Assembly: GCA_021800535.1 (NCBI GenBank) | Contig: JAJYYV010000002.1 | Coordinates: 89,620 to 125,787, forward strand | Source of the DNA: a bacterium | Lineage (GTDB): Bacteria > Ratteibacteria > UBA8468 > B48-G9 > DTJG01 | Length of the DNA stretch: 36,168 bases | Direction of reading: 5' to 3' | In this document: one piece after another, positions 13,169 to 35,062 of the stretch | Layout of the letters: every line of letters starts with the position of its first letter | Numbering within the stretch: the first letter of the stretch is position 1 | Program-made: the position numbers and the translations under genes | Notes under the pieces: model-generated | What the model saw: only the letters and a program-made list of their open reading frames with translations | Told to the model about the DNA's origin: nothing | Databases searched by the model: none

Positions 13169-14221
13169 ATGAGCAGAGAATTAGCATTAGATATAATCAA
13201 TTTAAAACCAACAAATCGTTTTGGGCACACAGAATATAGTATGGAATATCATAAGGAATATATTGAAAAACTAACCGGGGAATTCAGTGAATCTTATGGA
13301 AAAGATTTTTATGATAGATGGGGTTTTGATTTTTTATGGGTTGTTAATGATGGAATGTTTGGTGATTGGTTTAAACGGGGAAGAGCAACAAATATGGGGC
13401 ATGCTGCCTATGCATTGGATGAAAGCGACAAAAAAGCTTCTCAGGAATCTCCATTTAAAACAGTAGAAGAAGTATGGGCATTTGATCCTATAAAAGAATA
13501 TGGTTTACCAGATTTTAATCAACAGGTTAAAGAATATGAAAGATTTGTTAAAGCACAAAGAGAGAAATTCCCAAATCAACTTTCAACAGGTGGATATTAT
13601 AAATCCATTATTTCAGGGGCAATACAGGCTTTTGGTTGGGATATGCTGCTTATGGCTGCTTCAGACTATAACAAATTTGAAAAAGTTCTGGATGGATTTT
13701 TTAGATATACCCTTCACCATATGCAGGCCTGGGCAGAAACAAGTATAGAGGTTATTATTCAACATGATGATTTTGTATGGTCATCCGGCCCTTTTATAAA
13801 TCCTAAATTTTATAGGAATATTATTATTCCAAGATATACAGAGTTGTGGAAACCATTATATAAAGCAGGAAAAAAGATTTTATTCTGCTCAGATGGTAAT
13901 TTTATGGAATTTGCAGAAGATATTATTAAAGCAGGAGCAGATGGTCTTATATTTGAACCTGTAAATGACTTTGAATTTATGGTGGAACGATTTGGAAATT
14001 CTATATGTATTGTAGGCAGTGCAGTTGATTGCAGAGATATGACATTTGGTTCCTGGGAAAAAGTAAAAATGGATATGGATAAAACATTTAAATTGGCTGA
14101 AAAGTGTAAGGGATTGATACTGGCTGTTGGTAATCATATCCCACCTAATGTTTCTGATGAAATGTGTGATTTATACATAAACTATCTACAAAAAAACTGG
14201 TTTAGAAAATCTATTATTTAA
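13169..14221 (+). CDS. URO-D family protein, CSDG-motif variant
   Basis: The 350-residue protein has the same barrel as its neighbour but a different sequence. ATG 13169 is chosen because an AAGGA site precedes it and the upstream ATG lies inside the previous gene. Motifs are IIQHDDFVWSSGPFINPKF at about 197-214, CSDGN at 240-244, and GNHIPPNVSDEM near the C-terminus in the place of the neighbour's DHGAPPDIP. It starts 14 bases after the previous stop. Tandem, diverged URO-D proteins behind one regulator could form two subunits or two steps. Its last bases overlap the oppositely oriented pntB end by 8 bases. Function is unknown. Confidence 0.78.
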   Translation: MSRELALDIINLKPTNRFGHTEYSMEYHKEYIEKLTGEFSESYGKDFYDRWGFDFLWVVNDGMFGDWFKRGRATNMGHAAYALDESDKKASQESPFKTVEEVWAFDPIKEYGLPDFNQQVKEYERFVKAQREKFPNQLSTGGYYKSIISGAIQAFGWDMLLMAASDYNKFEKVLDGFFRYTLHHMQAWAETSIEVIIQHDDFVWSSGPFINPKFYRNIIIPRYTELWKPLYKAGKKILFCSDGNFMEFAEDIIKAGADGLIFEPVNDFEFMVERFGNSICIVGSAVDCRDMTFGSWEKVKMDMDKTFKLAEKCKGLILAVGNHIPPNVSDEMCDLYINYLQKNWFRKSII

Positions 14222-15632
14222 CTTTTTTAAGTTCATTTATAAGTTTTGAGACAGAATCCTTTGCATCTCCAAAAAGCATTCGCGTATTTTCATTATAAAA
14301 AAGCTCATTTTCAATACCTGAAAAACCAGGATTCATACTACGTTTTAATACAATAACCTGTTTAGCCTGCTGGACATTTAAAATAGGCATTCCATAAATA
14401 GGACTTCCGGGATTATTTTTAGCCGCTGGATTTACAACATCATTAGCTCCTATAACAAGAACAACATCTGCCCGTTGAAATTCAGGATTAATCTGTTCCA
14501 TTTCATAAAGATGGTCATAAGGAACATTGGCTTCAGCTAAAAGAACATTCATATGACCTGGCATACGGCCCGCAACAGGATGAATTGCATATTTTACTTC
14601 TATGTTTCTTTTTTCAAGCTCATTTTCCAATTCACGAACCTGATGCTGCGCCTGAGCGACTGCCAGTCCATAACCAGGCACAATAATAACCAATTGTGCG
14701 TATGCAAGCATAATAGCCACTTCATCAGAAGTAATTGATTTAATTGTTTTGTCTCCTGTTGTCCCACCGGAAGAATCTGATGATGTAATTTTACCGAATG
14801 CACCAAAAAGTACATTTGTAATAGAGCGATTCATAGCTTTGCACATTAAAAGGGTTAGCAGTGTACCTGAAGACCCAACAAGAGTTCCTCCTATAATCAT
14901 AGCAATATTATGTATAGTAAAACCATCTACTGCTACTGCAAGACCTGTAAAAGAATTAAGTAATGCAATAACAACCGGCATATCTGCCCCCCCGATAGGA
15001 AGAGTCATTAATATTCCAAAAACCAGGGATATTATAAAAAACCATCCAAAAATTATATGACTATCTGAAAAAATTGTTAACAATCCTAATAAAATAATAC
15101 CAAACATAATAATTGCATTAACAATTTTTTGGAGAGAATATGTAACTGGTTTGTCTATTAATCCCTGTAGTTTACTAAAAGCTATTACACTTCCGGTAAA
15201 GGAAACGGCTCCTACTAATGATGCAAATAAAGTTGTAATTACAAAAAAATATGAAATTGTTTGTGGATTTGATGAATGAGTAAAAAATTCTATTGCTGAA
15301 ACTAACGCTGCTGCCCCTCCTCCAACTCCATTAAATATAGCAACCATTTGCGGAATAGCAGTCATTTTAACAGCATATGCGCCAAAAACTCCAACAATTA
15401 AACCTATCAAAATAGCTATAATAATTAATATATAATTTATCAAATGCTGTTGAAATATAGATTTATTTGTTATTCCGGGTAATAATGGAATAGTAGAAAC
15501 AATAGCAATAAACATACCAATAGATGAAAGAATATTCCCTAACCGGGCGGTCTCAGGAGAGCTCAAAAGTTTCATGCCCAAAATAAATAATACAGCTGCA
15601 ATAAGATAGAGTATTCCAATTATTAAATTCAT
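14214..15632 (-). CDS. pntB: NAD(P) transhydrogenase subunit beta
   Basis: PntB carries most of the membrane domain and the NADP(H)-binding domain III of the proton-translocating transhydrogenase, which makes NADPH from NADH using the proton gradient. The 472-residue length fits. The N-terminal two-thirds has about nine membrane helices, including the GVGGGAAALVSA and LPIGGADMPVVI regions. Domain III begins near residue 290 and has VPGYGLAVAQAQHQV, HPVAGRMPGHMNVLLAEA, VLVIGANDVVNPAA, and PGFSGIENELFY. Its ATG overlaps the TGA of the preceding gene (ATGA). It is the last of the three pnt genes. Confidence 0.96.
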   Translation of the reverse strand: MNLIIGILYLIAAVLFILGMKLLSSPETARLGNILSSIGMFIAIVSTIPLLPGITNKSIFQQHLINYILIIIAILIGLIVGVFGAYAVKMTAIPQMVAIFNGVGGGAAALVSAIEFFTHSSNPQTISYFFVITTLFASLVGAVSFTGSVIAFSKLQGLIDKPVTYSLQKIVNAIIMFGIILLGLLTIFSDSHIIFGWFFIISLVFGILMTLPIGGADMPVVIALLNSFTGLAVAVDGFTIHNIAMIIGGTLVGSSGTLLTLLMCKAMNRSITNVLFGAFGKITSSDSSGGTTGDKTIKSITSDEVAIMLAYAQLVIIVPGYGLAVAQAQHQVRELENELEKRNIEVKYAIHPVAGRMPGHMNVLLAEANVPYDHLYEMEQINPEFQRADVVLVIGANDVVNPAAKNNPGSPIYGMPILNVQQAKQVIVLKRSMNPGFSGIENELFYNENTRMLFGDAKDSVSKLINELKKVK

Positions 15633-15922
15633 CGTTTTTTCCTTTTAAACATCTGCAACATACGATGGGTTACCATAAATCCTCCAAAAACATTAATTGA
15701 ACCAAAAACAACTGCAATAAATCCACAAATAAAAGACAGAAGATTATTTGCAGAGGCCAAAATAAGAATCCCTCCAATAAGAATAATTCCATGAATAGCA
15801 TTTGTTCCTGACATAAGTGGTGTGTGAAGAATTACCGGAACCTTTGATATAACTTCAAATCCTACAAATATTGCCATAACAAATATATAAAAAAGAAAAA
15901 GTCCAATTATAGAACTATTCAT
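15629..15922 (-). CDS. pntAB: NAD(P) transhydrogenase subunit alpha part 2 (membrane)
   Basis: The 97-residue protein supplies the remaining membrane helices of domain II. Three or four hydrophobic segments are visible, with the signature VPVILHTPLMSGTNAIHGII and a following GSINVFGGFMVTHRML. This is the split three-subunit form of the enzyme, as in Rhodospirillum rubrum, not the fused PntA of E. coli. It ends in a TGA that overlaps the pntB start by four bases, so translation is coupled. It is the only intact gene in the window ending in TGA. Confidence 0.95.
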   Translation of the reverse strand: MNSSIIGLFLFYIFVMAIFVGFEVISKVPVILHTPLMSGTNAIHGIILIGGILILASANNLLSFICGFIAVVFGSINVFGGFMVTHRMLQMFKRKKR

Positions 15923-15946
15923 AATATTCTCCTAAAAAATATTTTG

Positions 15947-17068
15947 TTACTTTTTTAATATTTCACCCTGGTGAGTGATACAGGTTTGCTTAATAATAAT
16001 GTCATTAAAATCAATATTTATCTTACCATCTTTTATAATGAGATTAAGAAAATTAAAAATATTCCGTGAATACATTTGACTGGCATGATGACTCATCATA
16101 CTTGGGACATTAACAGGCCCTAAAATTGTAACATTATTATATATTACCTGCTCATTTGCTTTAGTCAGTTCGCAATTCCCTCCTTGTTCAGCAGCAAGGT
16201 CAACAATAACAGAACCGGATTTCATTGTCTCTACCATTTCCTTAGTGATAAGAATAGGAGATTTTTTACCAGGAATTAACGCTGTAGTTATAGCTATATC
16301 TGCATCTTTTATATACTGAGAAATTAATTCTTTTTCTTTTTTCTGGTGTTCCTGACTTACTTCTTTTGCATATCCTGTTGTGGCAGTAGCTTCTTCAATT
16401 GTTAAACCTACAAACTTTGCGCCCAAACTTTCTACTTCCTGTTTAACAGCTGGACGGACATCAAAAGCCTGAACAACGGCACCTAAACGTTTTGCTGTTG
16501 CAATGGCTTGTAATCCTGCAACTCCTGCGCCCAAAATAAAAACTTTGGCAGGTATAATTGTTCCTGCAGCTGTAGTCAGCATTGGCAAAAGTTTTTTAAT
16601 GGTATTTGCCGCTAATAAAACAGATTTATATCCTGATATATTACTTTGAGATGAAAGAACATCCATTGGCTGGGCACGGCTTATCCGTGGAATAAATTCT
16701 AAAGCAAAGGATGTAATGTTATGTTGAGATAACATCTGGATAAGTTCAGGTTCAGAAGTAATTTGAAGCAATCCGATTAAAATTGCTCCTTTCTTCATTA
16801 TCTCTATTTCATGCTTATTAATAATTGAATTAAAAACTGGTTTTTGCACTTTAAATATTATATCCGCATTTTCAAACAAATTCTGAATATCTGAAACAAT
16901 CACAGCTCCTGCCTGACTATAAAGACTGTCGGCAAAATCGGCTTTTTCACCAGCTTTGGATTCAATAGAAATATCTATTCCTGATTTTACTAATTTTTCA
17001 ACTATATCAGGAGTAATCGCAACCCTATGCTCATTTGGCACAATTTCTTTTGGAATAGCAATTTTCAT
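15947..17068 (-). CDS. pntAA: NAD(P) transhydrogenase subunit alpha part 1 (NAD-binding)
   Basis: This is the soluble NAD(H)-binding domain I, related to alanine dehydrogenase. The 373 residues begin MKIAIPKEIVPNEHRVAITP and include SIESKAGEKADF, LGAGVAGLQAIATAKRLGA (the dinucleotide-binding loop at about 179) and VIVDLAAEQGGNCE. The C-terminal linker in domain II is absent, as expected for the split type. The order pntAA-pntAB-pntB with small gaps is a normal operon. No good promoter is visible in the short gap between it and the tRNA gene, so some read-through from the tRNA promoter is possible. Confidence 0.95.
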   Translation of the reverse strand: MKIAIPKEIVPNEHRVAITPDIVEKLVKSGIDISIESKAGEKADFADSLYSQAGAVIVSDIQNLFENADIIFKVQKPVFNSIINKHEIEIMKKGAILIGLLQITSEPELIQMLSQHNITSFALEFIPRISRAQPMDVLSSQSNISGYKSVLLAANTIKKLLPMLTTAAGTIIPAKVFILGAGVAGLQAIATAKRLGAVVQAFDVRPAVKQEVESLGAKFVGLTIEEATATTGYAKEVSQEHQKKEKELISQYIKDADIAITTALIPGKKSPILITKEMVETMKSGSVIVDLAAEQGGNCELTKANEQVIYNNVTILGPVNVPSMMSHHASQMYSRNIFNFLNLIIKDGKINIDFNDIIIKQTCITHQGEILKK

Positions 17069-17117
17069 AATATTTATATATGTTCAACTCCCTTTCCCCA
17101 AGAAGATTTAACACTAA

Positions 17118-17189
17118 AGCGGGAAACGGGATTTGAACCCGCGACTTCGACCTTGGCAAGGTCGCACTCTACCGCTGAGTTATTCCCGC
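17118..17189 (-). tRNA. tRNA-Gly (anticodon GCC)
   Basis: Read on the minus strand from 17189, the 72 bases fold into a standard cloverleaf. The acceptor stem GCGGGAA pairs with TTCCCGC, a D-arm with AGCGGTAGAG follows, then the anticodon stem CGACC/GGTCG with loop TTGCCAA (anticodon GCC). The T-arm is GCGGG-TTCGAAT-CCCGT-like with the TTCGAAT loop. The discriminator base is T, as usual for tRNA-Gly. The 3' CCA is not encoded and must be added by the CCA enzyme. Confidence 0.97.
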
Positions 17190-21568: not shown

Positions 21569-23845
21569 CTATAATATATAATTTTCAACAATAATTGTTT
21601 TTGTGGTTTTTCCTTTAATGGTAAAGTGGGGTATTTTTACATTTGAATTATCTCTGATTACTATCACTTCATTTTCAGAATTAAGTGCAAAAGTTTCCAG
21701 ATTAATTACTTCAGGGGTCATAGAAAGAATACGACCATTTAACACTTCAACTCCGGTTTTCAGTAATTTTACATAAGTTTGATGGAAAAAAGATGTATCT
21801 AATGTAAAAAAAGTCTGATGAGATTCATTTGAAAAAGGAATTCCATCAGGAACAGAAATATATGTTTCTCCTATTTGCTGGCTGCCAAACCCTAAAAAAT
21901 TATACCAGTAAGGATCCACAGCAAAACCAAAATTAAATACTCCGTTATTTATATCTACAGATTGTACACAATTTGCTATGGTAGCATACGCATCAATCAG
22001 ATAGTTCCAATTACCTGTTGCCATGAATAAAGAATGAGAAAAAGATGCACTCCATGCATTCCACCCATGTCCTCCTAACATACATGAACCAAGCCCCAAT
22101 GCCCACAATCCTTCCCAGTGACGAAGGGTAGATGCAAAAAAACGAGCATCTGGTACGCGGGGTTTAAACATACGACGGTTATTAAAAATGTTAATAGCCA
22201 CTTTTAAATCTTCCAGATGACGGCCAAAGTAAGGCCAAAGTGCTGCGATTTGATATCCCGCGCAAGAAGTCATTCCATCTTCATAAGTATCATATCCTTC
22301 AGTTACAGTATCATCTCCATCATGAACAATATTCCGATAAGCCCGTTCTATACAAACATGTATTTCGTCTGCTTCAGTGGTAAGTCCATGTTCTCTAAGA
22401 TGTAAACTCCAATCAAATAGACTTTTTACAGGATATATAACATTATTATAAATACGACCTTCCATACCATAAAAATTTCCATCAATACTTTGAGATTTCA
22501 TAAGATAACGAGCACATTTTTGCCCTAAAATAAGATATTTATCAGTACGAAATGCTCTATGATAAATACGGATAGCATCTAAAAGAGTTCCATAATTTTG
22601 AGGTCTCCACTCTGTATTTCGCTGACAACCGGTTTCCGGATCATAATAAGTATATACTTGTTTCATAATTTCATGAGCTTTAACCTGACACACTTTATCA
22701 TCAAAAAATTCTGCACATTGGCAGAGAGTAATCAATCCTAAAAGACTTTCTGAATTATAAACAGAAGGAATTTTGTGAATAGCAGTATACGTACCTGCTG
22801 TTTGTAAAATTTGTTTCCAGTCTTTTTGTTGCCAAAAACACGCTTCAGTTTTTTTCCCGCCATTATCTAGTCTGATAATTTGATAATTTATTCCTTCTTT
22901 TAAAGATAATGATATATGATTTTCATTTAAATTATAATTATTTAATAAAGTATTGGTATCTTTATCATAAATATTTACATTTATCGGATTAGAGGAATTA
23001 GAAGGATGTATTACAGGGATAGTAAGTGTTTCTTTTTCAAAACCACTGCAACGTTGAGGTATTAAAAAAGATACATTCAGCATATCTGATATTTTTTGCC
23101 ATAATGTTTCCATGGTATAAAATCTGCCTATATAAAAAGTACCATTATATGTGGGTTGATTGCCATCAAGTATCACTTCCTGGTGTTTCCATCTGGTTGG
23201 ATGAACATCTATAGAATTAATAAAATCTATACCTAAAGATACAATACGAACACTTCCCGGGTGGTCATACCAAATGTGCCAATTATCCACTTTACAGTTT
23301 GAAAAAACACCAATAATATCATAATCTTTGGAAATTAATCCTGCCCAAAAGAAGTCCTGTTCTATGCGTATATTTGTTGGATATGGCCGATGGTTCCATT
23401 CAGGAGCAAATTCAGTCCAGCAGTTAATACCAGTACAGTAACGAAGCCGGCGAATCGGGGCAGATATATTATTTTTTATCGTTTGTTCCTGATAATTAGT
23501 AGGATAATTCCAAAGAGTTATATTTGTTAATTTAAAATCACAACGTAATAATTCATTTTCAATAGAATATGTTTTTTCTAATTCAAACTTCCAGTGCGAT
23601 GGTCCTGTAAGAATTGTTTTGATTGTTAACTGAGGTGGGTTAAAATGAAATTGCCGAATACTTGTTTCCGGGTCAAATAAAACTTCATGATGTCCACAAT
23701 GAAGATACCAATTCCCTTCACGAAGTGGTCCATTAAGATGAAAACAAGAATGTTGTTTTTTAAGTTTATCCGGATGGCCAAGATTAATCAACCGTCCCAG
23801 AGAATCAAAACGGGCCTGAATATTTCCTTGAGTCAAACGGTACAT
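21569..23845 (-). CDS. Predicted intracellular six-hairpin-type carbohydrate-active enzyme
   Basis: I do not recognise a named family. The 758-residue protein has no signal peptide. Residues 1-250 look like a beta-sandwich substrate-binding domain (FHLNGPLREGNWYLHCGHHEV, WNYPTNYQEQ). The middle and C-terminal parts are helical repeats with alternating hydrophobic helices (YDPETGCQRNTEW, LLDAIRIYHRAF, GYDTYEDGMTSCAGYQIAAL, HGWNAWSASFSHSLFMATG). This pattern is characteristic of (alpha/alpha)6-barrel glycosidases or lyases. The conserved acidic residues needed to name a mechanism cannot be judged by eye. It follows the secreted GH42-like gene by 71 bases and has a GAAGGA ribosome site. A role in finishing oligosaccharide breakdown inside the cell fits. 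Confidence 0.6.
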   Translation of the reverse strand: MYRLTQGNIQARFDSLGRLINLGHPDKLKKQHSCFHLNGPLREGNWYLHCGHHEVLFDPETSIRQFHFNPPQLTIKTILTGPSHWKFELEKTYSIENELLRCDFKLTNITLWNYPTNYQEQTIKNNISAPIRRLRYCTGINCWTEFAPEWNHRPYPTNIRIEQDFFWAGLISKDYDIIGVFSNCKVDNWHIWYDHPGSVRIVSLGIDFINSIDVHPTRWKHQEVILDGNQPTYNGTFYIGRFYTMETLWQKISDMLNVSFLIPQRCSGFEKETLTIPVIHPSNSSNPINVNIYDKDTNTLLNNYNLNENHISLSLKEGINYQIIRLDNGGKKTEACFWQQKDWKQILQTAGTYTAIHKIPSVYNSESLLGLITLCQCAEFFDDKVCQVKAHEIMKQVYTYYDPETGCQRNTEWRPQNYGTLLDAIRIYHRAFRTDKYLILGQKCARYLMKSQSIDGNFYGMEGRIYNNVIYPVKSLFDWSLHLREHGLTTEADEIHVCIERAYRNIVHDGDDTVTEGYDTYEDGMTSCAGYQIAALWPYFGRHLEDLKVAINIFNNRRMFKPRVPDARFFASTLRHWEGLWALGLGSCMLGGHGWNAWSASFSHSLFMATGNWNYLIDAYATIANCVQSVDINNGVFNFGFAVDPYWYNFLGFGSQQIGETYISVPDGIPFSNESHQTFFTLDTSFFHQTYVKLLKTGVEVLNGRILSMTPEVINLETFALNSENEVIVIRDNSNVKIPHFTIKGKTTKTIIVENYIL

Positions 23846-23916
23846 TTATATATTCCTTCTATGTTAATAATCATAATCATATTTTTTGAATAAAATTTTT
23901 AAAACAATAAGACTTG

Positions 23917-26373
23917 TTATTTTTTTAAAAGGATAATGTCAGTCAGGTTTATAGGAATATTAAATACAATTCTACCATTATCTTTCTTAAAAGAGATTGC
24001 TCCATGTTTTATTGAAGAAACAGACTGATATCCTTTATCCGCAACTGATATTGTTAATTTATTTATTGGCTGCCGTGAAATATTTACCAGTACCAACGCA
24101 GCTCCTTTTTTAGATACTAATAGGTCTGCTTCAAATGCTTTTTCTGTGTTAAGAATTACATCTCTTTTTACTTTTGCTAATTTACATGGAAAATCTATTA
24201 AATTTCTTCCTCCTATAGGAAAATCTGTAACATAATGCGGCACTGGATTTGTCTGCGCTGTCCTGTCAAAAAAACTCCAGCCAGGCATAAATCCATAAGA
24301 TATTACTTCTCCTTTACCTACCTTGTTTTCTATTATTGCCGGCAAACCATCTGAAAATCTCCCTAATACATTTCCTTTTATATCTGAAAAAGAACTTTTC
24401 CTGTATAAAGATATATCAACCTGTTTTGTTATTCCTGTTTCTGCAGATAAACTTATGGTATCTGTTCCTTTTTTTTCATCTCCCTGTTGAATAAGGGTTT
24501 GTTTGGCTCCTGTTAATTGTTCAAGGCTATCTATAGGATTGTTATATTCATCTTTTGTTCCTGCCTGAGGGTCCATTACCAAAATTCCTCCATTTTCTAC
24601 ATATTGCTTTAAAGATGGATATATTGATTCTGGTAAACGCTCATCTACCAAATAAAGAACTTTATATTTGGAAAGGATATCTGCCATTTTATTTTTTTCA
24701 AGTAAAAGCTGATCATCACTTATAATATTTACAGGGTATTGTTCTTGCGCAAGAGCTATATATAAAAATTGTTTTTCCTGTCCGTTAAATCCTCCTGTAT
24801 CCCAGATTTCATCTGTTGTGCTGTATATTATTCCTACTTTGGATGTTACTGGTTGGCCTGGATATAATAGACTCTCTGCCTTTCCTGTATCTCTTATTAG
24901 TCTTGCTATTCCTTTATATTCTGAAAGACTGTCTGACCAGTAATTTTCTGTCGCTGCATATGTTGGTCCATAATCAAAAAAATAAATTGTTTTTACTCCA
25001 TGTCCTATTACAATCAACCCTTTCATTAATAGATTTTCACCTGCATCCATTGTAATGTAATATCCAAGTGGTTGATGATATATACTGGCTGCATTACGTA
25101 ATGTATCACAGACAAATCCAAGCCTTTGAAATAATCCATTGCCCCAGGATGTTATACCTTCATATAACCAGTCTTCACTCCACATTAGTGTTGTCGCATC
25201 TGTTAATCCTATGTTAAACCAGTCTATACTATTCATCATATTCCCGCCAAGAATAAGCGGATGGTCTGTAAAATTCGTGAAAGAAAGTGTTCCTGCCGGA
25301 TAATTTTCCTTTACACGCTCTGTAGCTTTTTTAAATTCCATTGCTGTAATGTATTCAAGATATCGCGCTGTCCAGTAGTATTCTTTTTTGGCTGCATCTC
25401 CATATTTTTTACCCCAGGTATATGCAATCTCTTTTATTTTTTCCTGGTCTGTTACTGGCACAACTGAACTCCAGTTATCTGTATTAAAATCTGCCGGCGT
25501 TAATCCTTCTGATTGAAGATATTTGTGAAATTCTCCAGCATTAATCTGAGAGACCCCTGCATGACCAGGTTCATCCATTAGACAAACCTGCCTTATTTCA
25601 TTAAATGCACCTGGATATTTCTCTGATATCTGTTTGTCTCTTTTTATATTATTAGGGTCTGCCATCCAGTTGTTATCATCATATCTGGTAAATCCAAGCT
25701 CCTGCTCTATCTTTAATGTTTCTTCATCCCAAGGATATGGTACTCCATTTATTCCAAGAATCTTGATTGTTTTTAATTCGTTTTCCGCTATCTGAGGGTC
25801 TGTATACTCAGAACCAAATCCTCCTGTAGCTGAAGTGTAAAATGAAAATTTCTTTGGAAGATTGTTTTGACTTAAATGTAAAGATTCCGCCATTTTTAAG
25901 TGTTGTTCTGAATTTTGTTTGATTGTCATTATATCTGTAGATGGATTTTCCCAATAATTCGGTTGTAATACTATTCCTACTATATTACCCTGCTGGTTTA
26001 TATTTATTGTTTTAAATACACTGGAAGGATTTGGTTTTGAAGCTAATTGTACTTCAAGATTTATTTGTTTTACTGGTTGTGGGTTGTATATCCTTAAAAG
26101 AATTGTTCCCCAATCTGAACCAATCTTTTCCCACTCTGAGTATGTATTCTTTTGAATCCATAATCTGGGATATGCTGCTCCGGGTCTGGGTATATTTTGA
26201 TATCCCACAGACCATGGGTCATGATGAATTACTGTGGTCACTGTGGCATATACCCCACCTATAGATATTGGCTTAAATCTGAGATATATATTTTGAGGCT
26301 GTTGTTCTGCTGTTTTTCCTGTTATACACCAAAACATCAAAATTATACCTATTATCCAGAGATATTTTTTCAT
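23917..26373 (-). CDS. Secreted GH42-like glycoside hydrolase
   Basis: The 818-residue protein begins with a standard signal peptide of about 22 residues (hydrophobic core then TGKTAEQQ). A beta-sandwich region covers about 25-140. The TIM barrel follows, with ILGINGVPYPWDEETL, TRYDDNNW and the motif CLMDEPGHAG (Asp267, Glu268), whose Glu is a candidate acid/base. Later VKTIYFFDYGP and a domain with VGIIYST, YPVNIISDDQL and GGILVMDP resemble the trimerisation domain of GH42 beta-galactosidases. The C-terminus ends in short beta strands. It should act in the periplasm or outside. The GH42 label is by architecture only. The 449-residue gene is upstream, and a purine-rich AAGGGGG site precedes the ATG. 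Confidence 0.7.
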   Translation of the reverse strand: MKKYLWIIGIILMFWCITGKTAEQQPQNIYLRFKPISIGGVYATVTTVIHHDPWSVGYQNIPRPGAAYPRLWIQKNTYSEWEKIGSDWGTILLRIYNPQPVKQINLEVQLASKPNPSSVFKTININQQGNIVGIVLQPNYWENPSTDIMTIKQNSEQHLKMAESLHLSQNNLPKKFSFYTSATGGFGSEYTDPQIAENELKTIKILGINGVPYPWDEETLKIEQELGFTRYDDNNWMADPNNIKRDKQISEKYPGAFNEIRQVCLMDEPGHAGVSQINAGEFHKYLQSEGLTPADFNTDNWSSVVPVTDQEKIKEIAYTWGKKYGDAAKKEYYWTARYLEYITAMEFKKATERVKENYPAGTLSFTNFTDHPLILGGNMMNSIDWFNIGLTDATTLMWSEDWLYEGITSWGNGLFQRLGFVCDTLRNAASIYHQPLGYYITMDAGENLLMKGLIVIGHGVKTIYFFDYGPTYAATENYWSDSLSEYKGIARLIRDTGKAESLLYPGQPVTSKVGIIYSTTDEIWDTGGFNGQEKQFLYIALAQEQYPVNIISDDQLLLEKNKMADILSKYKVLYLVDERLPESIYPSLKQYVENGGILVMDPQAGTKDEYNNPIDSLEQLTGAKQTLIQQGDEKKGTDTISLSAETGITKQVDISLYRKSSFSDIKGNVLGRFSDGLPAIIENKVGKGEVISYGFMPGWSFFDRTAQTNPVPHYVTDFPIGGRNLIDFPCKLAKVKRDVILNTEKAFEADLLVSKKGAALVLVNISRQPINKLTISVADKGYQSVSSIKHGAISFKKDNGRIVFNIPINLTDIILLKK

Positions 26374-26395
26374 TTTTTCCCCCTTGTTAAAAAAG

Positions 26396-27745
26396 TTATG
26401 GAGTAACTATTAATTTAATTTCTTTTTCTTCTTTATAGGATATTTTAAATTTCATTATACGGGCTAATCCGGGTGTAGTGTTTTCCTTACTGATTGCTTC
26501 TCCATCCTCTACTACATATATATAATGGCCATTGGGACTTATTGCTACATCATGTGGTGCAGTGAATTCTAAATTTGATGCATTTTTTCCAAATGAACCG
26601 AATGATGCTACATAATCAAATCCAAATCCTGTGTCTGAAAATTTAACTATTCTGCTATATTTTCTTTGAACTGCATATACACCATCCTCATGGTCAGAAG
26701 CCAGACCTCTTATATCATTTAGATTAATCTGCATTTTGGTAATAGGATCTGTAAAACTATTTAGTGAATAATTAGAAATTAAATAACCTTCCGGAGTTTT
26801 ATAAATAACTTTACCATTTTTATATGTTGTTTCATCAATTATTTTATGTAATCCTGTATAACTCCATGGACTACCAGGAGCCCAATATATTGCATTTTTT
26901 CCATCTGTAGTTATTGCATCTGCTGTCAATGGCTGGTCTTTTTGTTTTATCCCCCATAAGCCACCTGTATTTCCTGGTTTTCTTACATCCCAGCATAATA
27001 TAACATAACTTCCTGCATACAAATGACTTCCATTTATTCCAACCCATACCGGGTAATAACATCCATCTCCTGGTTTATATGGGCCATTCCAATAAGGATT
27101 ACCAGCTCCTCCTATATAATATAAAAGAGCTCCTGTTTTTCCATCATATACTCCTATTACATGACTGGTGGAATGTGTAAATGACAGATAAATACGTCCA
27201 TCGTTGCCAATACAAAATGAACCCCATAACGGCGCTGTCGTAGATTCAATAAAATTCTTTCCATTGATATCTTTTAACGGTTTCCCATCCGCAGTGAATT
27301 TGTATAGAATTGATGCCCCTTCGTCTAAAACATATAGATTGCCTGACCTGTCTGTCTGGACATCTGTTGGACTTATAATACCTGTATCTGAAATTATTCC
27401 ATCTTTCCCAAAACTTTTATCCAATGTAAAGGTAATCCCTGAAAGATATTTGAGGGTATATTGACCTGGTTTAACTTTTTTACCCCACTGGCCCCTTAGA
27501 TTCCATGGAACTACAATTGTTGTCTCTGTAGAACATTTATCTAAAATTGTCCTGACATACTTTCCTTTATTATTAAACACTTTTACTGCATGGTCCCCGG
27601 GTTTTAGATTGCCAAGTGTTATTACAAACACATTGCCTGATTGTAAAGACTCTGTTGCCGGGTTAACTGAAATTTCTACTGCGAATATAAATCCTGCCCA
27701 TAAAATAATTCCACTTATTATTCCTGCTATTATTTTTCTATCCAT
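26396..27745 (-). CDS. Secreted protein with FlgD-like Ig domain and beta-propeller repeats
   Basis: The 449-residue protein has a signal peptide ending near FIFAVEIS. Residues about 25-110 resemble the FlgD Ig-like fold (GDHAVKVFNNKGKYVRTIL, GQYTLKYL). The rest has NHL-like blades, for example SPTDVQTDRSGNLYVLDEG, SFCIGNDGRIYLSF and APHDVAISPNGHYIYVVEDG. Such proteins often bind glycans or other proteins on the outer surface; no catalytic residues are apparent. It is the first gene of the three-gene carbohydrate locus. A very strong AGGAGGAGA ribosome site precedes the ATG. Confidence 0.7.
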   Translation of the reverse strand: MDRKIIAGIISGIILWAGFIFAVEISVNPATESLQSGNVFVITLGNLKPGDHAVKVFNNKGKYVRTILDKCSTETTIVVPWNLRGQWGKKVKPGQYTLKYLSGITFTLDKSFGKDGIISDTGIISPTDVQTDRSGNLYVLDEGASILYKFTADGKPLKDINGKNFIESTTAPLWGSFCIGNDGRIYLSFTHSTSHVIGVYDGKTGALLYYIGGAGNPYWNGPYKPGDGCYYPVWVGINGSHLYAGSYVILCWDVRKPGNTGGLWGIKQKDQPLTADAITTDGKNAIYWAPGSPWSYTGLHKIIDETTYKNGKVIYKTPEGYLISNYSLNSFTDPITKMQINLNDIRGLASDHEDGVYAVQRKYSRIVKFSDTGFGFDYVASFGSFGKNASNLEFTAPHDVAISPNGHYIYVVEDGEAISKENTTPGLARIMKFKISYKEEKEIKLIVTP

Positions 27746-27833
27746 CTATACCATCTCCTCCTCTCCCTATCAGATTAATAATAAAATTTATATGCCTTTT
27801 TCTTTTATATATCGTTTTATATTTTAATTTTAT

Positions 27834-27861
27834 GTTATAATTAAATAATATTTGTTGTCAA
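27834..27861 (-). promoter_or_regulatory. Promoter of the FlgD-Ig/beta-propeller gene
   Basis: On the minus strand TTGACA (27856-27861) and TATAAC (27834-27839) are 16 bases apart, about 90 bases before the ATG at 27745. The leader is long and AT-rich, with the strong ribosome site near its end. Confidence 0.6.
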
Positions 27862-27953
27862 TTTTTTTTGTACGAGTTGAGTACAGAGTCAATACTTTTT
27901 TATTTAAAAATTAGATTAAAAATTCTAATATAAAAAATAATTGTTAAAATCTT

Positions 27954-28390
27954 ATGGATAAAAAAATTTTCTTACGCAATGCAATAGTTTTTGATTTTGA
28001 TGGAACATTAATTAAAAATGGTAAGTATAACAATGATAAATCTATACATATTATGTATGCATCCTGGGTATCCTGTTATGAAAATAAATTTAGAGAATTT
28101 CTTCAATCTGACAATATCAAATCAGATGTTTTCCACATGTCACGAGCATACATGCATTATCCTGGGGCTCCACGTTTCCAACAATTAGCCGCTATCGTAA
28201 ATGCACTTGTTAATAGATGTTATAAATCTGTTGATAACTTTTTAAAAATTTCCCTTCTTTGACAAAAATGTGGACATTTTCCCATGAAGAAGCAGCATTT
28301 ATGAAAGATAAAACACGTGAACTTCTTGAAATGTATGTTTCGGGATGTTCCATGACATTTTCACAAATTGTTAGTTGGATAAACCACTAA
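27954..28390 (+). pseudogene. Decayed HAD-family hydrolase
   Basis: The first frame encodes 102 residues beginning with the HAD nucleophile motif VFDFDGTLI and ends at TGA 28260-28262. A further open stretch lies in another frame from 28259 to the TAA at 28388-28390, with KMWTFSHEEAAFMKDKTREL and a GCSMTFSQIVSWINH tail. HAD phosphatases of this type normally have over 200 residues between these ends, including motifs II and III, none of which is present. An internal deletion plus a frame change explains the pattern. No ribosome site is seen before the ATG. It is very probably non-functional. Confidence 0.65.
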
Positions 28391-28415: not shown

Positions 28416-29494
28416 ATGTTTAAAGTTCAAAATACAAAAAAATATATTCAGATTGAAACTGGCAATGCAGTTTATGAATGGAATGCTCTTAGAGGAGGGT
28501 TATTGACAAATTTAATAGTTAAAGATGAAAAAAATAAAAATGGATGAATAATGGAGGTAGCAATGGTGAACCGATGGCAGATTATCGTGCTCATGATCCA
28601 GTTTGGCTCAAAGCATTTATCAAACGAGCCCATGAATTAAATATGCGTGTACTTCTTTATATCCGCGGAATTGAAAATTATGCAGCATATCAGAATTTTT
28701 TTGAAACCTATCTTATTAAAAATAGAGATGGACTATATATAGATTGGGCACTTCCATTTGCTATGGGATTTGCCAAAGCTACATCTAAACATTTTTCGGT
28801 ATATAATTATTTTATGTTCATACGGTCTCTTCGTAAAACAGTTGGGGAATATGGTATGCTAATAGACCATGCAATCCTTCAGACAGCAAGTTCCTATGCT
28901 ATTTTTGATGCAGCTATAACCGGAGAATTTTCTGTTTTGCATTCCGGACTTCTGGAATCTCCACTTATAAGCACCAGTTATGCAGGTATGTCATGTACAG
29001 GTATTCATCTTATAGCAGGTAATTCTCCTGATCGCGCAATATTCTCCGGACAAAAAGCAGCCGGTTTTGCCGCAGGATTAGGATGGGCAAATCATCCTTT
29101 TCTAGACCCAGATAAAGACTTTGCTTCATGTGCGGCTTTTACTAAACCGTTGTGGGATATAATTACCTCTCTTTCGTCCGATCCAATTAAAATGTTTAAT
29201 CCTTCAACTGAACCTATTTCTTTTGCTAAATGTACAAATGAAGCATTATATCCTATTGCTTATAAAGATAAATTTGGAAATGTTGTTGTTATTGTCGCAA
29301 ACTTAAGTGATAAGTCCATCAGTGATAAAGTTGAAATTAATATGTCTGTTTTAGGCATAAAATCCGGCAGTCTCCAGGTATTAAATATTCCCGGTACACA
29401 TGCGGTTATGGTAAAAAAAAATATTATTCTAATTAATTCAATGTCCCCTTACTTTTTTTGCGGTATATTTATAAATGGACAAAAAGCAAAATAA
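28416..29494 (+). pseudogene. Glycoside hydrolase with internal deletion and frameshift
   Basis: A first frame from the ATG at 28416 gives a typical glycosidase N-terminus (IETGNAVYEWNALRGGLLTNLIVKD split here as FKVQNTKKY and GNAVYEWNALRGG) and stops at TGA 28545-28547. A second frame from about 28541 gives 316 residues: RAHELNMRVLLYIRG, YIDWALPFAMGFAKA, LIDHAILQTASSYA, HLIAGNSPDRAIFSGQ and a C-terminal beta domain (FGNVVVIVANLSD). The two halves are in different frames and a large central part, including most of the barrel's first half, is missing. The original enzyme was probably a DUF6259- or GH36-related TIM-barrel glycosidase. An ORF finder would report the second half alone as a normal gene. 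Confidence 0.65.
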
Positions 29495-30522: not shown

Positions 30523-32136
30523 TTAATATGCATTCCATGGATTGTAACGATCCACAACCAAATCATAAATATATTTGGTATCGTGATAATTCACTTTTGG
30601 CCACTCTCCGTTGATTATTTCGGAAAGTATTGTTCTATTGCCAAAACAACGCATTGGCTCCCATTCAGTACCTATGATAGATTCGGCATCCCAGAAAAAA
30701 CCTCCATCAAGCCCAGCGTCAAGTATCTTAGCCATATAACCAGCCCGTGCTGCAAGGTTTCCTTTTACCCATGCATTGCCAAGTACTATATTATCTGACC
30801 CACCAGCATATATTTTTGTTCCTAAAGATTTTAATATCTTTAATGGTTCTAAATGTTCATTCAGAACAGGATTATCCTTGTGTCCTGCACCAATCATAAC
30901 TGATTCAATGAATCCTTTGCTGACCAATATTTCAATATCCAATCCAAAAATTTTATTTTTTTCAAAATCACGGGGAACAATACATGAAAGCACCTTGCCA
31001 TGTTTGGAAACAAGTTTATGAACACGTGCAATAAAATCTGTAAGCAATTGATACCTTACAGAAAGCATTTCAGAACTATCAACTTCTTCTGGTAAAGATG
31101 GTTTTCTGCCATAAATTTGTTCAAAAGCATTAATTACTGGTTCTTCACAAATCATAAGAGGCAGTCCTCTATTGAAAGATAAACATAATCCTTCGGGTTC
31201 ATATTCAAGCACTTTTTCAAAATATGAAAGAATTTTATCCTGCACTTCAGGGTAAGCATAACTAATTCTTTTAACTTTATGACCAAATTCATCACAACAA
31301 TGCCATTGGGGATTTTCATTGAAAAATTGTGTTGTATAAGAATGTATGGGAAATGGAGCATAAAATGCACCAACTCTAAAGTAGAAATGTAATTCCATAC
31401 CAATTTCACGTGTTGCATCACGCACCACAGTTAAAGGATCAACACCTGCTGAAAGTACATTTCTGATAGACTGATTTAGTACCCAATGATTTGCGTAGAA
31501 GCTTTTAGAATCATCCCGTGGAACAATATCTATTCCAGATAAGTCTGCCCAGGTTCCAATAAGACCTCCACCATATAATCCCCAAATCATCCTGAAGAAA
31601 TCACTATCTTTAAAAGGAAGTATATGGCGGTAAATATCACGGGGACAATCAATTCCAGACCAGAATATACCATGTCCATCATTGGTTGCGATAAGATTCC
31701 TGCGTGAATTATATGGTTCACAAGATTCTGCTCTTAAATAAAAAACAATCAGCTCACGTGAAAGTGTTTTTCCATGTACCGGTGAAATATGAAGATTTTT
31801 TCCTGTAAAGTCAGCTGCAGGAAATGCATAATCACGTATATCTGAAGTGAAGCCTGGAATTTCGCAATATCCTTTATCTCCGTCTAACCAGACCCTAATA
31901 GATGGTGTGTGCGCAAGATAAAGCCGATGCCAGCCTTTTAAATTAAGATTTAAAACAAGTTCATTTGCAGAAGAATGTGCACCGGTAGCCAGACCCGTAC
32001 CTGCAAAATCATCAAATTTATATTCAAACGGTATCCATCCTATTCCTATATCTTTTGCTGGTTTGAATCCTCCGGTAACGAGTGATGGAAGATTTTTGAA
32101 TAGTAAGTGTTTATTGTTTTTGTTTATTATTTCCAT
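30523..32136 (-). CDS. Putative glycoside-hydrolase-like TIM-barrel protein
   Basis: I cannot assign a family with certainty. The 537-residue protein lacks a signal peptide. Its first 150 residues are beta-rich (GWHRLYLAHTPSIRVWLDGD, ELIVFYLRAE), resembling an N-terminal sandwich. The second part is barrel-like: GMELHFYFRVGAFYAPFP, EGLCLSFNRGLPLMICEEP, KVLSCIVPRDFE, KIYAGGSD and GGFFWDAESIIGTEWEP. The CEEP and WDAES stretches supply acidic residues that could be catalytic. Proteins of this look occur in Planctomycetes as GHL10-type or unnamed hydrolases. There is no clear ribosome site before the ATG; start uncertain. It follows the GH20-like gene by 190 bases. Confidence 0.5.
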   Translation of the reverse strand: MEIINKNNKHLLFKNLPSLVTGGFKPAKDIGIGWIPFEYKFDDFAGTGLATGAHSSANELVLNLNLKGWHRLYLAHTPSIRVWLDGDKGYCEIPGFTSDIRDYAFPAADFTGKNLHISPVHGKTLSRELIVFYLRAESCEPYNSRRNLIATNDGHGIFWSGIDCPRDIYRHILPFKDSDFFRMIWGLYGGGLIGTWADLSGIDIVPRDDSKSFYANHWVLNQSIRNVLSAGVDPLTVVRDATREIGMELHFYFRVGAFYAPFPIHSYTTQFFNENPQWHCCDEFGHKVKRISYAYPEVQDKILSYFEKVLEYEPEGLCLSFNRGLPLMICEEPVINAFEQIYGRKPSLPEEVDSSEMLSVRYQLLTDFIARVHKLVSKHGKVLSCIVPRDFEKNKIFGLDIEILVSKGFIESVMIGAGHKDNPVLNEHLEPLKILKSLGTKIYAGGSDNIVLGNAWVKGNLAARAGYMAKILDAGLDGGFFWDAESIIGTEWEPMRCFGNRTILSEIINGEWPKVNYHDTKYIYDLVVDRYNPWNAY

Positions 32137-32326: not shown

Positions 32327-34012
32327 TTATAGATGTTTTTTTAGTAAAGTAATAGATTTTTTTGCACATTCAAAATCCATACCAAAAATACCGTTCCACC
32401 ATAGGTCAAAAGCAGATTGTTCTCCTATCCATTTCAAAAAATATCTTCTCCATTCAGGTTTTAAGGATTTCATATTACTCTGGATTTCTTTAAATCGTTT
32501 TTCCATCTCCAGGGGAATAATTTTAAGCCCATAGTCTTTGGTAGGAAACCACCATCTACCTTCTTCAATAATAAACTGAAGTTTTGCCTGTAATATTTCT
32601 GCTTCAATAGACATTATTAGACCTTTCCCAAATAATCCGGATACCTGTGCGTTCTTCAGTAATTCCAAAATATGTGTGAGTGAAAGTAATTTCCCATATG
32701 GTCCGGAAGATGCCATATTTCCAGATATAGTCCAAAAAATATCATCAAGCGACCACTCTCCTATCATTTTGGGCATGTCTAATTCAAGAGCAATTTCTGA
32801 TGCTCTTTCACGTAAATCTTCCGGATTTGTTTTTCCTGTCCATGCACTAACCGCCCATTGAACTATGCAGTAAAGAGAAAGAGTCCAGGGGGCATTAATA
32901 GGGGCAAACGAATGACCCCGTGCCCATGATGTTGCTATAATTCCTTCTCCCTGGTTCTCAATGAGAAATTTACACATTTCATTGGAATTCATAAATCCAC
33001 GAACCAAATGAGCACGAAATGGACCATCTCCACTCATCTGAATTGCACATGCCCCCCATAAGGGCTTATCAGAATTTTTCATTACTCTGAGTTGGGCAAA
33101 ATTTAACGGATATCCTGTATCAGGGTCAAATCCTCCTATTTTTTCAATATCCTCAGTATGAAGATCTTCTACAAAATCACCAGGCTTTGAAAACGGAACA
33201 ATAGGGTTTGCTGGAAATTCAGTGTTATAAGGATGTCTAAATTGTTGCTTTGCCGCTCTAAATCCTTTATATATAGTATACTTCATCTGTTTTTTTGTAG
33301 AACCATATTCCCATGGTATAATAACTACACGTTTATCTATTTTTTGTAGCAAATCAAGCCGTCCTTCTCCAAGAAGCATATCCCCCCACAACATAGGAAT
33401 GCGTCCCCTATTTAGAACTTCTGAGCAAACCCATTGCACATGTTCCAAATAAAGTTCTATTTTACCACCAAGCTTATTCATACGCTTTTGACAAAGTGAA
33501 CAATATCCCAGCCAATGTGTTTCATCTTGTCCGACATTAATTTTTGTACTGTACGGATGAATTTCGCATATATATGAAATTAAACGTTTAAGATAATTTT
33601 TCACTTCATCGCGCAAAGGACAAAGTTGATTCGGAAATTCCGGATTTTCAAAAAAATTTTCAGTCCCCTTAAGATGACTTAAATATTCAACATGTCCGAA
33701 TGTTTGAATTAAAGGTATCCATTCAATATCAAGAGATTTGGCTAATTCAGTTAATTCTTTTATTTCTTCCAGAGTATATCTGTCTTCTTTAGAAAACTGT
33801 GCTGAAAGTGGCAACTGCGGTAAACGATGTTCATATTCAACAAGTATGCCATTGATACCCCATCTGGCAAGTGTATAAAGAAATTTTTTGAATACTTCAA
33901 ATGGAATTTTGGGCCCTTTCAAATCAATATGAAGTATACGATACCTAATTGCTGGTTTATTGTATATTATACGCCATGCCGGAAGTTTTGATTTTTTTTG
34001 AAATAATATCAT
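32327..34012 (-). CDS. GH20-like beta-N-acetylhexosaminidase, intracellular
   Basis: The 561-residue protein matches the hexosaminidase D-type branch of GH20. An early TIM-barrel strand has RWGINGILVEYEH, then IPLIQTFGHVEYLSHL, and the catalytic Asp-Glu pair is in INVGQDETHWLG (Asp163, Glu164). A Cys-x2-Cys (Cys171, Cys174) follows, as in that branch. The later LWGDMLLG and IIPWEYG fit the remaining strands. There is no signal peptide, so it would act on internalised amino-sugar oligosaccharides. An AGGAGA site is present but very close (2-3 bases) to the ATG. A URO-D-family gene is upstream, and the 537-residue protein is downstream. Confidence 0.78.
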   Translation of the reverse strand: MILFQKKSKLPAWRIIYNKPAIRYRILHIDLKGPKIPFEVFKKFLYTLARWGINGILVEYEHRLPQLPLSAQFSKEDRYTLEEIKELTELAKSLDIEWIPLIQTFGHVEYLSHLKGTENFFENPEFPNQLCPLRDEVKNYLKRLISYICEIHPYSTKINVGQDETHWLGYCSLCQKRMNKLGGKIELYLEHVQWVCSEVLNRGRIPMLWGDMLLGEGRLDLLQKIDKRVVIIPWEYGSTKKQMKYTIYKGFRAAKQQFRHPYNTEFPANPIVPFSKPGDFVEDLHTEDIEKIGGFDPDTGYPLNFAQLRVMKNSDKPLWGACAIQMSGDGPFRAHLVRGFMNSNEMCKFLIENQGEGIIATSWARGHSFAPINAPWTLSLYCIVQWAVSAWTGKTNPEDLRERASEIALELDMPKMIGEWSLDDIFWTISGNMASSGPYGKLLSLTHILELLKNAQVSGLFGKGLIMSIEAEILQAKLQFIIEEGRWWFPTKDYGLKIIPLEMEKRFKEIQSNMKSLKPEWRRYFLKWIGEQSAFDLWWNGIFGMDFECAKKSITLLKKHL

Positions 34013-34090: not shown

Positions 34091-35062
34091 CTACATAGTT
34101 CTTTTTGCAGTAAACATTGCCAGGAGATTTTTTGTGGGAATATCAGGTAAAAAATTCTGGCTTGGAGCAAGAAATGCTCTGGTTGTTCCAAGTATGGAAA
34201 TAATGTGGCTAACCTCTTTTTTAATATCTTCCGTGTTACCATATGGAAGAAGATATTGAGTATCTATTCCCCCATGAAAACAAATTTTCCCTCTGAATTT
34301 AGCAGCAAGATTTTCAATTTCCATATTTTTTGCGTGAACCTGAATAGGATCAAGTATATCTGCACCCATTTCTATAATATCTGGAATAATTTGAGAAATA
34401 GCACCACACGAATGAAACTGAACAAAATATCCATAGTTTTTGATATGTTGTATAATTTTTTTAAAAGCCTGTTTATAAAAAGTAAGAAACATTTTGTAAC
34501 TGATATACAAAGAGGTTTGTGTGCCAAAATCATCTTCAAGTGATATGATATCAACAGCATTGCCAACATCTCTGTAAAATTTATCCATTACTGCTACAGC
34601 ATAATCAACACCACATTTTATTGTTTCCTGTATAAGATCCGGCCTGATAGAGTGGTGCATCAAGGAAATTTCATATCCAAATGCGCTGTTATTTCCAAGG
34701 AATAATGATCCCGGGCCATAGGTTAATATTGCATATTCAGGATAGTTATTTCTTATATTAGGAATGTGTGAAAAATCCATTAATTCATCTAAAGGGGGAA
34801 TATCTTCCAATATTTTTTTTATCTCTGCCGGAGAATCTACTTTTTTTAAAAATTCCTTGTCTCTTTTAAATGCTGTTTTACCGGGATTTGGATATACTCT
34901 TATTATATCAGCATTAAGATAATTGATAAGTTCAAATTCATCTTTAAGATTTAGTTCCTTAATATACTTTTCTGTTGCTTCTGGGATACCATAATAATCC
35001 ACAGGTATTCTATCAGTGGATTTACCATAAATTGAAGATAATACCCGTTCTTTATGGGTCAT
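34091..35062 (-). CDS. URO-D family protein with HxCG zinc motif
   Basis: The 323-residue protein begins MTHKERVLSSIYGKSTDRIPVD, a standard start for URO-D-family proteins. It has SLEDDFGTQTSLYISYKMF at about 174-192 and FHSCG at 216-220 (His217, Cys219). HxCG is the zinc-binding pair in cobalamin-dependent methyltransferases such as MtaA, MtbA and CmuA. The third ligand position near the C-terminus reads LAPSQN, where many relatives have APSHN, so it may be weakened. A GGAAAATATA ribosome site precedes the ATG, and the start is clear. The gene is upstream of the GH20-like gene in the same direction, with a 78-base gap. Confidence 0.82.
   Translation of the reverse strand: MTHKERVLSSIYGKSTDRIPVDYYGIPEATEKYIKELNLKDEFELINYLNADIIRVYPNPGKTAFKRDKEFLKKVDSPAEIKKILEDIPPLDELMDFSHIPNIRNNYPEYAILTYGPGSLFLGNNSAFGYEISLMHHSIRPDLIQETIKCGVDYAVAVMDKFYRDVGNAVDIISLEDDFGTQTSLYISYKMFLTFYKQAFKKIIQHIKNYGYFVQFHSCGAISQIIPDIIEMGADILDPIQVHAKNMEIENLAAKFRGKICFHGGIDTQYLLPYGNTEDIKKEVSHIISILGTTRAFLAPSQNFLPDIPTKNLLAMFTAKRTM

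Follow-up and report, generated by a model that had tools for sequence, protein, structure and literature searches.

In this study, a three-gene locus was analysed in a stretch of DNA of 36,168 nucleotides (hereafter the window; assembly GCA_021800535.1, contig JAJYYV010000002.1, positions 89,620 to 125,787 of the forward strand) from a bacterium of the Ratteibacteria. The third gene encodes a 758-aa protein that we take, with a probability of roughly 0.5, to be an intracellular enzyme of the PL27 superfamily acting on imported oligosaccharides that bear glucuronate; it occupies the slot after a conserved pair of proteins presumed to act outside the cell, a 449-aa propeller protein and an 818-aa GH42-like protein. 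In the proposed mechanism, the pair would bind and cut a glycan outside the cell, the oligosaccharide pieces would be imported, and the 758-aa protein would finish them inside at glucuronate. It would remove the sugar attached to the uronate, either by a PL27-like beta-elimination or through a different reaction at that site, and the gene in the third slot would be one of several interchangeable finishing enzymes. The source is a metagenome-assembled genome of 2.0 Mb in 86 contigs, 90.8% complete, and the comparison sample for its phylum comprised 35 genomes. An earlier reading of the DNA, made from the letters alone (the sequence-only reading), had called this a carbohydrate locus of three open reading frames (ORFs). 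Both statements were borne out: the frames encode proteins of 449, 818 and 758 aa, all on the minus strand.

For almost all of its length, the 758-aa protein has the predicted structure of PL27. A model computed without an alignment was useless (predicted local distance difference test, pLDDT, 36.7) and was excluded from the structure search; a model built with 41 distant relatives reached a pLDDT of 79.6 and a predicted template modelling (TM) score of 0.84, with moderate confidence (61 to 68) at residues 511-520 and 571-590, the stretches bearing the conserved motifs. It consists of a beta-sandwich, an immunoglobulin (Ig)-like stretch and an (alpha/alpha)6 domain. According to PMC8377490, PL27 members combine a beta-sandwich with an (alpha/alpha)6 domain and, by desaturating glucuronate, liberate rhamnose from gum arabic. 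Structures were compared with the PDB only. Foldseek placed the two entries of the PL27 enzyme BACCELL_00875 (5no8 and 5nok), an L-rhamnose-alpha-1,4-D-glucuronate lyase, at ranks 1 and 2 (E 5e-23 and 8e-23, 12% identity; TM 0.66 by query and 0.74 by target), and rank 3 was a cellobiose phosphorylase at E 7e-8 and TM 0.27. The same two entries headed the VIA-align list, where 5no8 matched at Z 26.9 over 603 residues with 12% identity; the next entry (Z 23.5, 286 residues) covered the helical domain only. The six-hairpin type of fold that the sequence-only reading had assigned to this protein is thus supported by the model and by the structural matches.

Sequence searches for the 758-aa protein gave a different picture. 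No Pfam match passed the cut-off, no NCBIfam model matched, and phmmer returned no PDB match at E up to 10; a Rieske Pfam match at E 0.16 lies below the cut-off and was rejected. A single-sequence search found the protein in its own genome alone, both in a first set of 61 genomes and in a wider draw of 386, and a single-sequence scan of genome contigs found nothing; phages gave no match and viral contigs no relative. A profile search of the phylum matched 2 of the 35 genomes, its own and one other; the latter match covered 35 positions at E 1e-3 and was dropped as chance, as was a second weak stretch in its own genome (E 0.04, with two stops). Relatives were found elsewhere. On plasmid records, tblastn detected one in Persicobacter (E 2e-30, 24.4% identity) and one in Phocaeicola massiliensis (E 1e-20, 21.8%), both sitting in glycan loci of SusC/SusD type. 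Of 194 genomes from the phylum to which a Lentisphaerae genome belongs, eight matched the 758-aa protein, two of them already collected. The relatives gathered in this way form an unnamed family, to no member of which the 758-aa protein is more than 24% identical; when it was compared with the family profile, HHalign gave 100% (E 2.8e-45).

By profile comparison, this unnamed family is a distant sister of PL27. The PL27 side was represented by six proteins of PL27 type; over 123 residues, the starter shares 78% identity with 5no8, and the other five are 51-58% identical to the starter. With the 758-aa protein excluded, the profile of 57 sister-family members matched these six at 96.1% (E 3e-9, 489 columns), and ten control families reached at most 22.7%; with the 758-aa protein in the profile the values were 97.0% for PL27 and 27.8% for the best control. 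The controls were GH89, GH27, GH97, GH35, GH115, GH95, an MGH1/GH63-like protein, SusD, a 1050-aa protein with no Pfam match, and a 642-aa protein that was labelled GH127 by eye and has no Pfam match either. A smaller profile (A1) listed 5no8 at E 0.013. The 758-aa protein shares 26 invariant columns with the sister family over 44 sequences including itself. A MAFFT alignment was made of 53 sister-family members and the six PL27 rows, four fusions longer than 900 aa having been dropped beforehand. In it, 13 of the 90 columns strongly conserved in the sister family carry the same residue in PL27, and the 758-aa protein keeps nine of these 13 (N108, P148, R414, E522, P565, R575, W577, W595 and T610), a count made without a shuffled control. 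A tree built in quick mode without bootstrap puts it by itself, with an end branch of 6.19 leading to it. It falls outside the 53 members and on the same side of PL27 as they do, and the great length of the branch makes its exact position uncertain. The protein appears to be the sole member found of a deep lineage beside the unnamed family.

Two further outcomes follow for the sequence-only reading, which had suggested an undescribed glycosidase or lyase family and had regarded a structural match to a named family of carbohydrate-active enzymes (CAZymes) with known specificity as evidence to the contrary. The empty Pfam, NCBIfam and PDB sequence searches agree with the suggestion. The structural match does exist, in the PL27 fold, but the identity is 12% and there is no sequence match of the single protein (HHalign against the six PL27-type proteins, 2.6%), so the 758-aa protein is best described as a relative of PL27 and not as a member. 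That it is an ordinary PL27 enzyme is scarcely credible, even though the fold is the same nearly from end to end: besides the low identity, the tree separates the six PL27 rows from the 758-aa protein and the sister family with full support (Shimodaira-Hasegawa-like approximate likelihood ratio 100).

Several observations weigh against a PL27-like enzyme acting on imported oligosaccharides. Four of the 13 columns shared with PL27 are lost (the His at 165, the Gly at 319, the Pro by 592 and the Asp at 672), and among these F165 and S672 replace a His and an Asp conserved in both families. Only 49 of the 90 columns strongly conserved in the sister family are kept: 42 of 69 in the helical domain, none of two elsewhere, and 7 of 19 in the N-terminal domain. 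At the profile level, 5no8 is not among the PDB matches of the profile A2, whose other PDB matches (GH76, filamin and others) were short and weak and were set aside. A GH88-family protein would normally process the product of a lyase; no match to this family (PF07470) was found in the genome, and in the phylum 13 of the 35 genomes match it at E up to 0.001, five of them over the cut-off. No sister-family member with tested activity was found, and the 17 window proteins covered by the Pfam scan include no sugar transporter. The gene order no more than suggests that the 758-aa gene is co-transcribed with the pair in a putative operon.

Some of the same facts speak for a serious rival, which we consider possible though not probable: that the 758-aa protein is a hydrolase, namely an inverting exo-glycosidase with two carboxylates in the (alpha/alpha)6 barrel, its likeness to PL27 reflecting descent and not chemistry. 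Suitable carboxylates are at hand, since E366, E516 and D523 are invariant over the 44 sequences and E522, D566 and E578 are conserved in at least 90% of them; the genome has no GH88 match, and the helical domain of the model also resembles several hydrolases at Z of about 20 to 23.5. The sole near-full-length match at a reasonable root-mean-square deviation is nevertheless a lyase family, and E522, R575, W577 and W595 are common to the 758-aa protein and PL27. The replacements also raise the question of a catalytically dead or merely binding relative whose active site was lost. Four His conserved in the sister family are replaced (F165, V199, N364 and R557), Ser stands for the Asp at 672, and the end branch is very long. 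We hold such a loss to be improbable, as the columns kept in the (alpha/alpha)6 domain include R414, E522, R575 and W577, and the frame is intact over all 758 codons. Set beside PL27, the 758-aa protein has equivalents at R414, E522, R575, W577, W595 and T610, and it differs from that family in the following: the lost equivalents of H165 and D672, an intracellular location read by eye, and a genome without the GH88-family match.

The sister family occurs in several bacterial phyla. Scanning a single genome from each species yielded 60 distinct loci, and the full collection comes to 62, many of them ending at contig edges; it was assembled with degenerate-peptide scans and plasmid searches, and the number is a lower bound. 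They belong to Bacteroidota, Bacillota, Lentisphaerota, a planctomycete, an acidobacterium, Hydrogenedentes and a Kiritimatiellaeota bacterium, with examples in Persicobacter (WP_338399192.1, annotated as hypothetical), Phocaeicola, Bacteroides and Paenibacillus. Pfam gave scattered weak matches over 44 members, with no family in more than four of them at E up to 0.01, and NCBIfam has no model that matched the three members scanned. No paper title or abstract start describing the family was found; a recent or unclassified CAZy entry may exist, CAZy having been outside the search. PMC8511951 contains none of six terms for the fold.

The neighbours of the sister family point to glycan use. In 19 of the 62 loci, the fetched stretch contains a same-strand GH89-type gene, which is adjacent in 12, two genes off in six and eight off in one. 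The GH89 label rests on a Pfam NAGLU match of one scanned member and on clustering for the rest. One of these loci is from a Lachnospiraceae (L057) and the other 18 are from Bacteroidota. The co-occurrences are not phylogenetically independent; two (L049 and L084) are near-identical copies from one species. Other genes, counted by cluster, include SusC-type (16 loci), SusD-type (16), GH27 (5), GH97 (4), GH35 (4), GH95 (3) and GH115 (3), one member per cluster being checked with Pfam, except that the SusC and SusD clusters were named from annotation. From each cluster of the 121 other close same-strand neighbours one protein was scanned, 81 in all; among the 25 of 101 families listed, none occurs in more than three of the 81. 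Two Bacteroides fragilis loci (L069 and L087) have GH115 and no GH89. Taken over all loci, GH89 is the commonest enzyme partner, though not the sole one. According to PMC8225759, one characterised GH89 enzyme, Bt3590 of Bacteroides thetaiotaomicron, cuts the N-acetylglucosamine-alpha-1,4-glucuronic acid (GlcNAc-alpha-1,4-GlcA) linkage of heparosan; by analogy, glucuronate glycans are plausible substrates for the sister family. PMC6499787 counts GH89 with the families for which duplication in single-family loci is more frequent. In the window, the 17 proteins scanned include neither SusC/SusD nor GH89.

The GH89 neighbours hint at a further reading. The sister family may be a new CAZyme family acting on a sugar other than rhamnose that is alpha-linked to glucuronate, for example GlcNAc-alpha-1,4-GlcA, and the 758-aa protein would then represent a second subfamily, one that works inside the cell and differs in catalytic residues and specificity. 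We regard this combination as rather unlikely. Two other features of these loci were observed. A membrane protein that resembles COG4299 but has no Pfam match lies with or near the sister-family gene in 10 loci, nine of which also have GH89. In three Phocaeicola loci (L049 at 14009-17158, L084 and L091), the 1050-aa protein with no Pfam match lies between the sister-family gene and GH89.

The names given to the first two genes of the locus were confirmed in part. The 449-aa protein had been read as a propeller with a FlgD-Ig domain: one NHL match barely exceeds the Pfam cut-off (20.1 against 20.0 bits), and the PDB matches are to NHL-type and designed 'Pizza' propellers, but for the FlgD-Ig-like N-terminus the FlgD Ig-like family PF13860 scores 12.4 bits against a cut-off of 27, with a weak NCBIfam FlgD match at E 0.0085. 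For the 818-aa protein, the GH42-like label holds at the C-terminus, where the trimerisation domain of GH42 (GH42M, PF08532) reaches 29.7 against 25.8 bits and is the only domain over its cut-off. It does not extend to the catalytic family: PF02449 matches six places in the genome, the 818-aa gene not being among them, and is absent from its Pfam scan too. Over 16 aligned members of the 818-type family, E268, E400 and E500 are invariant and D267 is nearly so. This family looks greatly expanded in the taxonomic family of the window genome (genomes G002-G009), with up to 23 matches per genome of about 2 Mb as against three here, some genes giving more than one match.

Homologues of both proteins adjoin in five of eight fetched regions from relatives (L039-L043). 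In two others (L044 and L045) the contig stops at the 818-type gene, and the last, from a genome of the same genus (L038), has an 80% identical 818-type gene preceded by prepilin-like genes (by eye) and no propeller. Of the five regions, three have a gene of the xylose-isomerase-like type (AP_endonuc_2) after the pair and two a glucuronoyl-esterase-like gene (PF22244); the third-slot gene is also of the esterase type in L044 and of the isomerase type in L045, these names resting on Pfam matches of one or two members per cluster. In L039 and L041, an arabinofuranosidase-like gene comes one or two genes later. Since the pair is kept and the third gene differs, the pair is a recurring unit with a variable third gene. 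The sequence-only reading had proposed that the three genes bind a glycan, cut it outside and process it inside; as a fixed pathway this finds no support, the pair being conserved without the 758-aa gene. Elsewhere in the same genome (L144, 8627-13135, contig G000:C76), a 79% identical propeller lies beside another GH42-like gene in reversed order, with an oxidoreductase-type gene after this second pair and prepilin-like genes before it (by eye).

Table 1. Features of the three-gene locus and of the region before it (positions in the window).
Feature	Position	Strand	Remarks
449-aa propeller protein	26396..27745	-	first gene; exported, read by eye from N-terminus
818-aa GH42-like protein	23917..26373	-	second gene; exported, read by eye from N-terminus
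758-aa PL27-like protein	21569..23845	-	third gene; intracellular, read by eye from N-terminus
Promoter-like site TTGACA-N18-TAACAT	27832..27861	-	before 449-aa gene; 10/12 consensus match
Palindrome TGTACGAGTTGAGTACA	27869..27885	.	just upstream of the -35 of 449-aa gene

The three genes are closely spaced, with 22 bp between the first and second and 71 bp between the second and third, and ribosome-site-like stretches were seen by eye; the next gene, 150 bp past the 758-aa gene, encodes a P-type ATPase. An in-frame stop immediately before the start of the 758-aa gene makes a longer N-terminus in the same frame impossible. Its GC content at third codon positions (20.0, against 18.4-24.4 in eight other window genes) lends no support to a recent foreign origin, which was set aside. 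A strong promoter and ribosome site had also been claimed. The consensus match is good and the ribosome-site-like stretches are present, but promoter-like sites are not above chance in the scanned stretch (37 found against 44.3 expected in shuffles). The palindrome TGTACGAGTTGAGTACA is a possible operator or regulator site. It is the single match in the window to TGTAC-N7-GTACA, for which 0.01 is expected in shuffles, the pattern having been picked post hoc; in L038-L043 and L144 a search for a looser form found none.

Beyond the locus, the window holds two remnant-like ORFs on the plus strand, one at 27954-28262 with a HAD-like start seen by eye only, and one at 28544-29494 containing a glycosidase-like piece by eye, with a Pfam match below the cut-off only. 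Also encoded there, on one strand, are a GH20-like protein (32327-34012) and, at 34091-35062, a URO-D-type protein; a 537-aa protein near them (30523-32136) has no Pfam match at E 1e-5.

In sum, the locus is real, though less of a unit than the sequence-only reading had it. Its third gene encodes a deep-branching PL27-like protein, beside an unnamed sister family that none of the present Pfam, NCBIfam and PDB searches describes. The 758-aa protein is the deepest branch found of this PL27 sister group, and the unnamed family is of the most general interest. The structural match makes action at glucuronate a direct hypothesis that can be tested for some 60 loci together. If the relationship is true, a PL27 sister family in some gut Bacteroides and Phocaeicola genomes would leave gaps in the glycan-digestion loci predicted for them.

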